64,000 bases of DNA from assembly GCA_031254035.1 (NCBI GenBank), contig JAIRVF010000042.1:80749-144748 (forward strand). The letters are read 5' to 3'. The DNA comes from Paenibacillus sp. (GTDB taxonomy: Bacteria; Bacillota; Bacilli; Paenibacillales; Paenibacillaceae). The translations under genes and the position numbers were made by a program. Under the pieces are notes generated by a model, which saw only the letters and a list, made by a program, of their open reading frames with translations, did no database searches and was not told the origin of the DNA. Below are positions 3,065-48,041 of this stretch, piece after piece. Within the stretch, counting starts at the first letter, position 1; every line of letters begins with the position of its first letter.

Positions 3065-3166
3065 AGGCGCGATCAAAAAAATAGTGAAACAGATTTGCAC
3101 GAAATCCGCCCTTCGATAGGCTACATTCGGCAAATCGAATGGTCTATTATTTTCTTGATCGCGCCT
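3065..3166 (-). repeat. Family-1 palindromic element, copy 1
   Basis: A 102-bp imperfect palindrome. The left end GGCGCGATCAAAAAAATAG is complementary to the right end TATTTTCTTGATCGCGCC. Inside lies a second inverted pair, GATTTGC and GCAAATC. It closely matches copies at 9239-9341 (same orientation) and 37560-37705 and 43176-43277 (opposite orientation). No coding capacity. Its size, termini and dispersal suggest a MITE- or REP-like element. It sits within the loop of an 11-bp stem (3040-3050 with 3171-3181). Confidence 0.85.
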
Positions 3167-3256: not shown

Positions 3257-3314
3257 AACTAGTTCGTTTTGCGAAAGTAGCGGAAGAACGATCCGTAACC
3301 GCAGCGGTCACCTT
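3257..3314 (-). repeat. Family-2 element, short internally deleted copy
   Basis: On the minus strand this reads CCGCTGCGGTTACGGATC followed by a TTCTTCCGCTACTTTCGC-like stretch. The two parts match the left and right portions of the 187-bp element at 47855-48041, with the central hairpin of about 90 bp missing. It also matches the element at 35713. It abuts the stop codon of the CBS-domain gene, so the last bases of that gene may come from the element. Confidence 0.65.
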
Positions 3315-9238: not shown

Positions 9239-9341
9239 AGGCGCGATCAAAAAAATAGTGAATCCGACTTGTACGAAAACTGCCCGTTCGTTGGGCTACT
9301 TTTGACAAATCGAATGATTTATTATTTTTTTGATCGCGCCT
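9239..9341 (-). repeat. Family-1 palindromic element, copy 2
   Basis: A 103-bp copy in the same orientation as copy 1, with ends GGCGCGATCAAAAAAATAG and TATTTTTTTGATCGCGCC, the cleanest terminal pair of the four copies. It lies inside the opp operon, 43 bp upstream of the oppB start and just downstream of the oppA terminator. Transcribed, it would form a long hairpin between the two cistrons. Confidence 0.85.
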
Positions 9342-35707: not shown

Positions 35708-35712
35708 TATGA

Positions 35713-35800
35713 AATTAGTTCTTAACATTATGCGAGGTCGCCGCTACGGTTACGGATCGCTCTTCCGATCGCTGCCCTCCTCCAAATTTCTTGATTTGTT
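35713..35800 (+). repeat. Family-2 element, partial copy
   Basis: Begins AATTAGTTCTTAAC and continues through GGTTACGGATC, TCTTCCGATCGCTG and TCCAAATTTCTTGATTT, matching the left half of the element at 47855-48041 almost base for base. The right end is unclear; a weak AACACTAG at about 35861 could be the decayed terminus. Confidence 0.7.
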
Positions 35801-37279: not shown

Positions 37280-37534
37280 CTATTCCTCGATGCTTATATA
37301 TCTCTCATGATTGTCTTTATAGTAGATTCCTCTGATCTCCACATGTTCTTGCACAATGATTTGCTGTACGAAGGCCAGATCCTCCTCTGGAAATTGAATG
37401 GATAACGCACAGCCTGCCGTAATCGCCTTCGGTGTAGGGCAAAGATCGATTTCAATATCGGCATACTCGAACAGCATTTCCGCCCGAAGCGCCTGCTGCG
37501 TCGAATCGAAGGCCATTAACATCCATGACTCCAT
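37280..37534 (-). CDS. DUF3343 family protein, putative Se/S carrier-like
   Basis: Protein of 84 aa matching DUF3343 (Pfam PF11823, annotated as putative Se/S carrier-like). The family core reads CPTPKAITAGCALSIQF, with a Cys at about residue 42 in the position of the expected functional cysteine. Its function is not established. It heads the operon with mscS and yyzM. The ribosome-binding site is weak. A family-1 repeat ends 25 bp upstream, so its promoter must lie in or beyond that repeat. Confidence 0.8.
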   Translation of the reverse strand: MESWMLMAFDSTQQALRAEMLFEYADIEIDLCPTPKAITAGCALSIQFPEEDLAFVQQIIVQEHVEIRGIYYKDNHERYISIEE

Positions 37535-37559
37535 CGCACTTCTAACCGCCTTCCGCCCT

Positions 37560-37705
37560 AGGCGTGATCAAAAAAATAATAGGGCGCGATCAAGACTATG
37601 GCTGTTATTTTCTTGATCGCGCCTAGATCATTCGATTTGCCGAAAGTAGCTTAGGCGACGGGCAGCTTTCGTGCAAATCTGATTCACTTTCTTTTGATCG
37701 CGCCT
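37560..37705 (+). repeat. Family-1 palindromic element, copy 3, with nested insertion
   Basis: Opposite orientation to copies 1 and 2. The outer element matches the family but is interrupted at 37582-37623 by a 42-bp palindrome with the same GGCGCGATCAAG termini. Removing the insert and one TA restores the family sequence AATAATAGATCATTCG. It lies between the divergent DUF3343 and yyaC genes. Confidence 0.85.
37582..37623. mobile_element. 42-bp palindrome nested in family-1 copy 3, flanked by TA
   Basis: Ends GGCGCGATCAAG and CTTGATCGCGCC are perfect 12-bp inverted repeats around an 18-bp centre. TA lies directly on both sides (37580-37581 and 37624-37625) where the other copies have a single TA-containing sequence, which is what insertion with target duplication would leave. 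It is too short to encode anything. Confidence 0.65.
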
Positions 37706-37729
37706 TAATAAATTGCTTGTCCCAAGGAA

Positions 37730-37792: not shown

Positions 37793-38398
37793 ATGACCCA
37801 GCTGCCTAATCCTTCCCAGCAACAGCAGCTTTCTTGCTTAAAAATACCACATACCGATCCTGAAATCCATTCCGCTATCATTCACCGTCTCTTGTTTTAC
37901 TTATCACAAGCTGAAGAAAAACAACAGGTGATTGTCGTTTGCATCGGAACCGACCGCTCTACGGGCGACTGCCTTGGCCCTTTGGTCGGTACGGCATTGG
38001 CACGTTATAAGAGTCCATGGTTCCATTTGTTCGGCACACTGGAGGAGCCTGTTCATGCCGTAAATCTGCAAGAGACCCTCTCCTCTATTTACGCCTTATA
38101 TAACAATCCCTTTGTCATCGGCGTTGATGCCTGTCTTGGACAGTCTTCTAGTGTCGGCTGTATCCAAGTGGCTAGCGGCCCTCTCAAGCCCGGCGCAGGC
38201 GTACATAAAGAATTGCCGCCGGTTGGCGATATCCATTTGACAGGTATCGTTAATGTCGGCGGCTTCATGGAATATTTCGTATTGCAAAACACACGGTTAA
38301 GTCTGGTTGTCCGTCTATCGGACATCATTGCATCCAGTCTTCACTCCGCGATTCAGGAATGGAAAACCCGCTCTACCCTTGTTGCACGGCTAGACTGA
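37793..38398 (+). CDS. yyaC: Spore protein YyaC (GPR-like peptidase fold)
   Basis: Protein of 201 aa of the YyaC family, related in fold to the germination protease GPR that cleaves small acid-soluble spore proteins. Conserved stretches include VVCIGTDRSTGDCLGPLVG, VHAVNLQE, VIGVDACLG and GIVNVGGFMEYFVLQNT. AAAGGAAG precedes the ATG at 37793. It is on the plus strand among minus-strand neighbours. Its last 26 bp overlap the end of the convergent DUF4446 gene. The family's own proteolytic activity is not well established. Confidence 0.92.
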   Translation: MTQLPNPSQQQQLSCLKIPHTDPEIHSAIIHRLLFYLSQAEEKQQVIVVCIGTDRSTGDCLGPLVGTALARYKSPWFHLFGTLEEPVHAVNLQETLSSIYALYNNPFVIGVDACLGQSSSVGCIQVASGPLKPGAGVHKELPPVGDIHLTGIVNVGGFMEYFVLQNTRLSLVVRLSDIIASSLHSAIQEWKTRSTLVARLD

Positions 38399-40257: not shown

Positions 40258-41097
40258 TTATTGCAGAAGTTCCAACAGCCGTTCCAAATCTTGCTTACTG
40301 TAATAATTCAGTTCGATTTTGCCCTTATCTTTGTTTTGTTTGATTTTCACCGTCGTTCTAAATCTATCACGCAATGATTCTTCCAGACTATCAATATAAG
40401 GGTCGCGCTTTTTCACTTTAACCTTATTTTTATCATCAGCTTTACGATCTAAGCTTTTCACGGCTTCCTCAAGATCACGAACACTCCACTCATTCGCTAC
40501 ACATTGTTTGGCAAGCTGTTTAATAAGCGCTGGGTCCTTTAATCCGACGATTGCACGAGCATGTCCCATGGACAATGTTCCACGTGAAACATAATCCTTG
40601 ACTTCCTCAGGGAGCGAAAGCAACCTCAAAAAATTTGCGATATGCGATCTTGATTTTCCTACCTTGAGAGACAATTCTTCCTGAGTAAGCGAATACTGGT
40701 CCATTAACCCCTGGTATGCAACCGCAACCTCCATCGCATTCAGATTTTCACGCTGTAGGTTCTCGATCAACGCTATTTCCATAACCTGCTGATCATTGAA
40801 GCTGCGAACAACCGCAGGAATCGTTGCTTTTCCGCAGTATTGAGATGCTCGGAAACGCCGTTCACCAGCAATAATTTCATAACCCTTCAATACACTGCGC
40901 ACAATAATCGGCTGAATAACGCCATGTTGCCGGATAGATTCCGCTAATTCTTGGATCGATTCCTCATTGAAATCTTTGCGCGGCTGGTACGGATTCGCAC
41001 GCAGTTGACTGAGTGAAATTTCCACGATTTTATCATCATCATTAATTGAAAGGGAAGGAATTAAGGCATCAAGTCCTTTGCCTAACCGTTTACTCAT
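40258..41097 (-). CDS. spo0J: Chromosome-partitioning protein ParB/Spo0J
   Basis: CTP-dependent DNA clamp of 279 aa that loads at parS, spreads, and recruits SMC. The N-terminal nucleotide-binding domain shows LRANPYQPR and GERRFRAS, then a helix-turn-helix domain with LSLKVGKSRSHIANFLRLL and a C-terminal dimerisation region. It overlaps soj by 8 bp. A perfect parS lies within its coding sequence at 40576-40591, as in B. subtilis. Confidence 0.97.
   Translation of the reverse strand: MSKRLGKGLDALIPSLSINDDDKIVEISLSQLRANPYQPRKDFNEESIQELAESIRQHGVIQPIIVRSVLKGYEIIAGERRFRASQYCGKATIPAVVRSFNDQQVMEIALIENLQRENLNAMEVAVAYQGLMDQYSLTQEELSLKVGKSRSHIANFLRLLSLPEEVKDYVSRGTLSMGHARAIVGLKDPALIKQLAKQCVANEWSVRDLEEAVKSLDRKADDKNKVKVKKRDPYIDSLEESLRDRFRTTVKIKQNKDKGKIELNYYSKQDLERLLELLQ
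40576..40591. promoter_or_regulatory. parS site inside spo0J
   Basis: TGTTCCACGTGAAACA matches the parS consensus (TGTTNCACGTGAAACA) at every position. It serves as a ParB nucleation site about 11 kb from dnaA. Confidence 0.93.
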
Positions 41098-42249: not shown

Positions 42250-43065
42250 TTAACGCTTAGGGATCTGTATCACAATTTCATAATGATCCTCATGATCATT
42301 TTCGGTCGTTTTGATCGCCATTCCGGAATCGGATACCATATCAATAGATTGCCGGATGGTATTTAAGGCAAGACGGACATCCTTGGTAAAAGAGATCCGT
42401 TTGGATTTTTTAATTTTGGAAACCTCTTTATAGAAAGCAACTCGTGCTTCCGTTTGTTTCACATTTAAATCTTTTACAATAATTTCAGACAATAGCTTTA
42501 GCTGGAGCTCCTCTGTATCCAAAGACAACAGTGCACGGGCATGACGCTCCGTAATCTTGCGTTCCATGAGCGCTGCCTTCACTTCTTGGGGCAAATGAAG
42601 CAGTCGAATTTTATTCGCAATGGTCGACTGGCTTTTCCCGAGACGCTGCGCCAGACTTTCCTGAGTTAATTGATGAAGATCAATCAGCTTCTGGTAAGCC
42701 ACTGCCTCTTCAATCGAAGTCAAACCTTCACGCTGCAAATTCTCGATCAACGCAATTGAAGCCGCTTGGGAATCATTAAATTCACGAACAATTCCAGGGA
42801 TCGTCTCCATCCCAAGTTTTGTAACAGCACGCCAACGCCGTTCTCCGGCAATGATCTCGTATTTGGAATTGCGGATACGCACAACAATTGGCTGAATGAC
42901 GCCATGGGTCTTGATTGTCTGGCATAACTCATCAATTTTTTCGTCATCAAAAATCGTGCGGGGTTGATAGGGACTACTAACAATCTCCCCCACCGGAATT
43001 TGTTTTACTTCATCACTATTGTTGCGCTCCGTCAAACCAAACAATTTAGAAAATTGTTCTTTCAT
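42250..43065 (-). CDS. noc: Nucleoid occlusion protein Noc
   Basis: ParB-family, membrane-associated nucleoid-occlusion factor of 271 aa that blocks division over the chromosome. The N-terminus [11 protein letters not shown] fits Noc's membrane-binding amphipathic helix. It has SSPYQPR, GERRWRA and the DNA-binding [19 protein letters not shown]. Location between rsmG and soj-spo0J is the standard noc position and separates it from Spo0J. ATG 43065 is chosen over an in-frame GTG 15 bp upstream that overlaps the AGGTGG box. Confidence 0.95.
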
Positions 43066-43175
43066 TGCGTATATTACCACCTAATTTCGTAATAGCACTT
43101 TGGCAAAGCGCTTGGCCAGCATCATTAGTAAAATCGACTTACCTGCATTCTTAAGTATGATATAAATCTGCTATT

Positions 43176-43277
43176 AGGGCGCAATCAAAAAACGATAAAT
43201 CATTTGATTTGCCGAAGGTAGCTTAGGCGACGGGCCGTTTTCGTGCAAATCTGATTCACTATTTTTTTGATCGCTCT
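43176..43277 (+). repeat. Family-1 palindromic element, copy 4
   Basis: Same orientation as copy 3, sharing CATTTGATTTGCCGAAGGTAG-like and CGTGCAAATCTGATTCACT internal blocks. The ends GGGCGCAATCAAAAAA and TTTTTTTGATCGCTC carry more mismatches than the other copies, so this is the most decayed copy. It lies upstream of noc. Confidence 0.8.
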
Positions 43278-47822: not shown

Positions 47823-47854
47823 GTTATTCACCTCTTCTTTCGGCTCAATACTGA

Positions 47855-48041
47855 AATTAGTCCTTAACATTGTGCGTGGTGGCCGCTGCGGTTACGGATC
47901 ATTCTTCCGATCGCTGTTGTCTCCAAGTTTCTCGATTTTATTTTTCACAAAGGTAGAAATTTGGAGACAAAGGCGAACGCTACCGCTTCTTCAGAACGAT
48001 TCCGTCCCCTCCGCTACTTTCGCTTTTCTCAAGCACTAATT
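47855..48041 (+). repeat. Family-2 element, full-length copy
   Basis: Terminal inverted repeats AATTAGTCCTTAA and TTCTCAAGCACTAATT (imperfect, about 13 bp). Inside, TTGTCTCCAAGTTTCT and AGAAATTTGGAGACAA form a 16-bp hairpin with one mismatch. Shares the GGTTACGGATC block with copies at 35713 and 3257. Non-coding, 187 bp. It lies 33 bp upstream of the mnmE start and so occupies or displaced its promoter region. Confidence 0.75.

Follow-up and report, generated by a model that had tools for sequence, protein, structure and literature searches.

The nested element and its genomic setting

The window, by which we mean the whole stretch of 64,000 nucleotides of Paenibacillus sp. DNA analysed here, carries a 144-bp composite element on the plus strand at 37561..37704, located between an 84-codon minus-strand reading frame (37280-37534) and a plus-strand gene of the DUF1256 family (37793-38398). 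The surroundings of both flanking frames are conserved in relatives. Two ParB-domain genes are present on the minus strand (40258-41097 and 42250-43080), 3-5 kb from the composite, and their proximity suggests that the window is situated near the chromosome origin.

The composite is a plain element of about 100 bp with a 41-mer inside it and comprises, all on the plus strand, a 22-bp left module of the outer element with TAG at its end (37561..37582), the near-palindromic inner short form of 41 bp (37583..37623) and an 81-bp remainder of the outer element (37624..37704). The inner 41-mer is bordered by TAG on the left (37580..37582) and on the right (37624..37626), a putative target duplication, and the composite as a whole is flanked by CTA (37558..37560) and TTA (37705..37707). 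A preliminary description of this DNA had placed the outer copy at 37560-37705, which takes in the flanking A and T, and had reported within it a nested 42-bp palindrome with TA on both sides. The nested palindrome is real, with TA at 37580-37581 and 37624-37625; the stretch 37582-37623 is a G followed by the 41-mer GGCGCGATCAAGACTATGGCTGTTATTTTCTTGATCGCGCC, so that a 42-bp palindrome plus TA and a 41-bp palindrome plus TAG are the same bases, and the second description agrees better with the remaining genomic copies. The 41-mer consists of two 17-bp ends and a 7-bp middle, is identical to its own reverse complement over the first 13 bases and agrees with it at 32 of 41 positions in all, and as single-stranded DNA it folds 6.4 SD better than shuffles.

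Removal of the palindrome together with one TA had been said to restore the plain sequence, and this was confirmed: once 41 bp and one TAG are taken away, the composite is reduced to 100 bases, which were aligned end to end with the three plain copies of the window, namely copy 1 (100 bp, 3066..3165, minus strand), copy 2 (101 bp, 9240..9340, minus strand) and copy 4 (100 bp, 43178..43277, plus strand), copies 1 and 2 being read on the minus strand. The composite itself contains direct repeats of the element ends. In the window, nine matches to GGCGCGATCAA were found at up to one mismatch against 1.7 expected, and none of 100 shuffles reached nine. Hereafter, G000 denotes the genome to which the window belongs (the own genome), other G numbers denote other genomes, and L numbers denote loci read in the own genome or in relatives.

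Other repeats were observed in the same setting. A second repeat family occurs in the window at 35710-35774, 47852-47916 and 3281-3312 (65 nt at 89%; an inverted piece of 32 nt at 94%), and L033 and L200/L202 are among the own loci that have related stretches in their flanks. A further repeat of about 80 bp that ends in a terminator-like hairpin occupies at least 25 places in G007 and is also present inside L275; it is matched by the flank of composite L012 (query 438-517), and L012 sits in the hairpin loop of one copy of this repeat. A minority of elements are located between the arms of terminator-like hairpins, copy 1 and L194 being the clearest cases, together with L001 and L012. Among 79 rows (78 plus L194, which was dropped by the composition filter and added by hand), 3 such insertions were counted at the strictest score against 0.4 expected (P 0.01) and 8 at the loosest against 14.7 expected, and an earlier version of the test at score 10 gave 3 against 0.9 (P 0.06). 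Terminator loops as a general target were rejected, and the feature is that of a minority.

Size and distribution of the family

The ends of the family are written GGCGCGATC. A scan for the end pattern at up to three mismatches counted 95 + 100 places in the own genome, where the reversed control gave 1 + 4, and 40 + 48 places in G007, where the control gave 2 + 5. The members have terminal inverted repeats of at least 11 bp, occur in forms of 41-148 bp (below 500 bp) with no coding capacity, are dispersed in many copies (195 end matches against 5 in the control), show a target duplication, apparently of 1-3 bp, and have element-free alleles. The nested hairpin thus belongs to a large MITE-like family of the own genome, made up of short mobile elements that encode nothing.

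When 100 genomes of the genus were searched, the strict pattern of the short form turned up in the own genome only, at 8 places, and the sister element discussed below was matched in four (G000, G007, G036 and G011). Copy 2 is common to the own genome and G007 at the same place. A related 55-bp element occupies the same locus in G000 (L297) and G036 (L276), and the family therefore seems older than the split of these two genomes. Beyond the sampled genomes of the genus, genome contigs, from which records at or near the own genome may have been excluded, were scanned for exact 28-mers and 20-mers and gave no match, nor did a scan of plasmid and phage sequences. Five single-end matches to a degenerate 20-mer in viral contigs had no partner end and were taken as chance. 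Rfam returned no match at E<=1, and a literature search found no paper on this element family, for which the print record may still hold one.

Composite forms, their recurrence and descent

The preliminary description had read the nested copy as a local insertion into the outer copy at this locus, a view that the recurrence of the composite does not support. The junction between the 41-mer and the outer element was found, on one or both sides, at 14 own-genome loci (the window, L006, L008, L012, L026, L034, L039, L041, L103, L106, L121, L130, L314 and L315), while a single left junction was seen in the nearest relative, G007 (L181/L307), and not one in 98 other genomes (control 0). Five further own-genome rows from a loose scan of the right junction proved not to be composites. 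In all 15 composites the position of the 41-mer is the same to the base and its orientation does not vary. Composites with both outer ends measure about 144 bp; where the left module is missing the form has about 124 bp (L026, L103), and where the right part is missing about 63 bp (L034, L041 and L181 of G007). With the solo 41-mer added, these forms exhaust the end pairings that one composite offers; the likeness of inner and outer ends allows a derivative to be bounded by any two of them, which would account for the four lengths.

Relatives were compared at these loci. At the window locus the eight best-matching genomes (G036, G011, G007, G012, G016, G073, G015 and G003) are without the element; the junction itself was aligned for G036, G016, G073, G003, G012 and G007, and in G011 and G015 the absence rests on the short distance between two flanking matches. 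The alleles without the inner form that the preliminary description had proposed to look for do exist in relatives, at the window locus as well as at solo 41-bp loci. None of the eight closest relatives has an outer-only allele at the window locus; what they lack is the whole composite, so the nested state probably arrived there as one piece. The refuting case named in the preliminary description, that the interrupted form might prove ancestral, was borne out by half, since the composite appears to be older than the window insertion; at the locus itself the relatives have neither the interrupted nor the outer-only form, and no relative examined shows there any step of the order of events proposed below. 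The composite loci L006, L008, L121 and L130 are also element-free in G007, and the empty counterpart of L012 lies in a G007 repeat.

A tree of outer right halves was constructed from 40 rows scoring 50 or more, 9 of them composites, with weak branches and bootstrap values that had not settled. Five composites were left out: L130 scored too low, L034 and L041 have no such half, and L314 and L315 came to light only afterwards; L015 is a plain copy and was counted as such in the clade test. The composites do not group in this tree and fall into both outer subtypes, and a single origin of all composites was rejected on their outer halves (one clade, p-AU 0.018). Since the outer halves form no single clade, exchange between copies or repeated insertion is needed in addition to descent. 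Taking this tree together with the constant base and orientation at the 15 places, we read the composite as an element that probably moves as a unit, with exchange between copies, the main rival being repeated insertion at one base. According to that rival, the 41-mer would have inserted several times independently into resident plain copies, always at a hotspot; it agrees with composites in both outer subtypes and with the rejected clade, but the base and orientation are the same at all 15 places and no outer-only allele was seen in relatives at the alignable composite loci, and we consider it unlikely.

Short forms and their origin

The 42-bp form was indeed found elsewhere in the own genome, at 14 places on both strands at up to three mismatches (control 0), so that the other refuting case of the preliminary description, a lack of further copies, does not apply. 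When 85 loci of the own genome (875,599 bases including overlaps) were read for short forms, 35 candidates of 39-46 bp were obtained, of which two were taken as chance (L117 17607 and L124 7870), 11 were in composites and 22 were solo, the latter comprising 18 of 40-41 bp and four of 42-46 bp. The 41-mer, present in exact form in L008 and L035, corresponds exactly to the first 22 and last 19 bases of a 79-bp sister element (C141:20822-20900) whose middle 38 bp are missing from it, and from this match we infer that it was left by internal deletion of the longer sister element. The short forms of G007 are 43-47 bp long and have other junctions, so short forms seem to arise repeatedly.

At nine solo loci (L009, L033, L035, L038, L040, L043, L114, L117 and L133) those relatives whose sequence could be aligned over the junction have no short form. 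At L007, by comparison, 41 bp in the own genome stand against 63 bp at the same place in G007 (L181), an in-place change of form; forms can change in place, and the 41-mer at a given locus may have shrunk there. A reading built on such changes denies the nested form any mobility of its own: only long forms would insert, and the 41- and 63-bp forms would be products of deletion between the direct repeats of the ends, which the composite indeed contains. We are doubtful of it: the 18 solo 41-mers are more numerous than the composites, and the aligning relatives at the nine solo loci are empty and not longer, a point that is weak as these relatives are distant. We regard the movement of the 41-bp form by itself as likely, short of proof.

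Target duplication and the search for a mover

Flanks were compared for 94 elements (73 of the own genome, 21 of G007) with end pairs at up to three mismatches, some of these rows being chance. Flanking 3-mers are identical in 18 of the 94 against 8.7 expected, and 4-mers in none. The signal is strongest at the middle of the 3-base frame, where the second base out from the element agrees in 52 elements, with 32 expected, and none of 20,000 shuffles was as high; the base adjoining the left end matches the third base on the right in 50 against 44 expected (P 0.045), and the remaining position does not match above chance. With the 62 good-end rows the middle base matches in 37 against 22, and the 3-mer signal is weaker (12 against 7, P 0.025).

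Two readable empty sites, at L012 and L033, are both TTT, the flanks of L023 are TCA/TCA, and at L012, L033 and L038 the base by the left end differs from the target, which is kept in the right copy. Comparison with empty alleles gave a net gap of 3 at the junction for L012 against two G007 repeat copies, for L033, L038 and L001 against G007, for the window locus against G036 and G016, and for L043 against G073. A net gap of 2 was obtained for the window locus against G012, G003 and G007, and gaps near the junction of 2-3 at L035, 1-3 at copy 1 and 1-2 at L006 and L117; for L043 against four other genomes the values were 1, 9, 0 and 0. Several alignments, among them those of copy 2, L023, L040, L041, L098 and L130, were too gapped or displaced to be read. 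The flanks fit a duplication of 1-3 bp in a T-N-A context, and the strict TA duplication originally proposed does not fit L012 and L033. Either the duplication is of 3 bp (T-N-A) with decay, or the tip bases are carried by the element and fewer bases are duplicated.

Palindromes of the REP/BIME kind, mobilised by a Y1 (RAYT) transposase that makes no target duplication, would also be small and present in high number, and the flanking A and T by the ends look partly element-borne; the match two bases out, the net gaps of 3 at L012, L033, L038 and L001 and the symmetrical ends make this origin very improbable.

The own genome has a single DDE_3 match, a broken IS630-type remnant with an internal stop, and its 3.3-kb locus contains no family end at one mismatch, one at two and one more at three, with no pair around the gene. 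An IS630/Tc1-mariner derivative with two-base TA duplication, the system named in the preliminary description, is likewise very improbable, for although TA stands on either side of the inner copy and TA flank pairs exceed expectation (16 of 94 against 9.6 in this register, 14 of 94 against 7.2 in the other), the TTT empty sites, the TCA flanks of L023 and a sole, broken DDE_3 gene with no such ends beside it all speak against it.

For DDE_Tnp_1, 29 loci (10 matches in G000, 19 in G007) were scanned at up to two mismatches and showed no family ends at their boundaries; L207 has two ends 3.3 kb apart at two mismatches, which are off the IS boundaries and of a kind common by chance. DDE_Tnp_1_2 gave two matches in G000, two in G007 and none in G036 and G011, and its four loci have no end pair. 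An autonomous transposon sharing the family ends was not found in the three transposase families searched (DDE_3, DDE_Tnp_1 and DDE_Tnp_1_2), which is compatible with a mover that was lost or is foreign. Four multicopy IS types of G007 have ends that differ from those of the family. L195, L197, L199 and L201 of G007 are four near-identical IS copies of about 1.25 kb with the ends ACGCCTGTTGAT, which are unlike the family.

Comparison with known systems

IS1031 prefers T-N-A. Compared with the PIF/Harbinger-IS5 group, the flanking 3-mers here agree above expectation as given above, with only the middle base clearly duplicated, and the family ends are absent from the IS5-type genes that were examined in G000 and G007. 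Canonical Harbinger elements make 3-bp duplications and their relatives 0, 2 or 3 bp (PMC12730594).

Prokaryotic MITEs are described in a review as shorter than 500 bp, with terminal inverted repeats, AT-rich, mostly intergenic and flanked by repeats that fade with age (PMC10969869). The family shares these traits, and differs in its 41-bp short form, which is little more than two ends, and in that no mobilising IS was found in the three transposase families searched. The Correia elements of Neisseria occur in forms of about 150 bp and, internally deleted, about 105 bp, show strain-specific insertions and insert mostly at TA, with some at CA (PMC2649163); longer and internally deleted forms and strain-specific insertions are found here too, whereas the sites here are TTT and T-N-A and the deletion forms go down to 41 bp. 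The pneumococcal repeats RUP, BOX and SPRITE are inserted into one another, and for RUP mobilisation by IS630-Spn1 has been proposed (PMC3049150). Nesting of small repeats in repeats is common to both cases, but here insert and host share their ends, the nested unit recurs at 14 loci, and no partner IS was found in the three transposase families searched. TIME elements are Tn3-derived, 262 bp long, with 5-6 bp duplications and Tn3 ends, and their composites flank genes (PMC4133298); like the family here they are short non-autonomous elements that build larger composite mobile units, and they differ from it in size, duplication length and ends as well as in the flanking of genes.

Proposed origin and implications

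Plain forms of about 100 bp, 41-bp forms and 144-bp forms occur with the same ends at many separate places, and relatives are without them at many. As a whole, these data are in our view best explained, with good though not full confidence, by a MITE-like family. It would have been moved by a transposase encoded elsewhere or now lost, presumably a DDE-type enzyme whose insertions would duplicate 1-3 bp in a T-N-A context. The order of events may have been that the middle of the longer sister element was lost to give the 41-mer, that the 41-mer then landed at a TAG within a plain copy, and that the resulting composite was from then on mobilised whole, copies exchanging some sequence among themselves. 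The window copy would be one landing of this composite, at a site in the gap from which two reading frames diverge.

A bolder proposal, which we put forward tentatively and which is to be taken jointly in its three parts, concerns the mode of movement. Transposition of the 41-bp form alone would place it among the smallest transposable DNA units on record. The two ends of this form would be too close for ordinary double-stranded looping and might instead be paired between molecules or in an extruded hairpin. As the inner and outer ends would be interchangeable, the nested copy could serve as a kit giving units of 41, 63, 124 and 144 bp.

Should only the composite move, this would be an ordinary nested MITE family. 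If the 41-bp form does move alone, it would set a lower size limit for transposase-mobilised DNA, which could be tested with a synthetic hairpin. The family, in which nested forms, alleles without the element and in-place changes make up a natural series, also lends itself to the study of the origin and spread of tiny elements.
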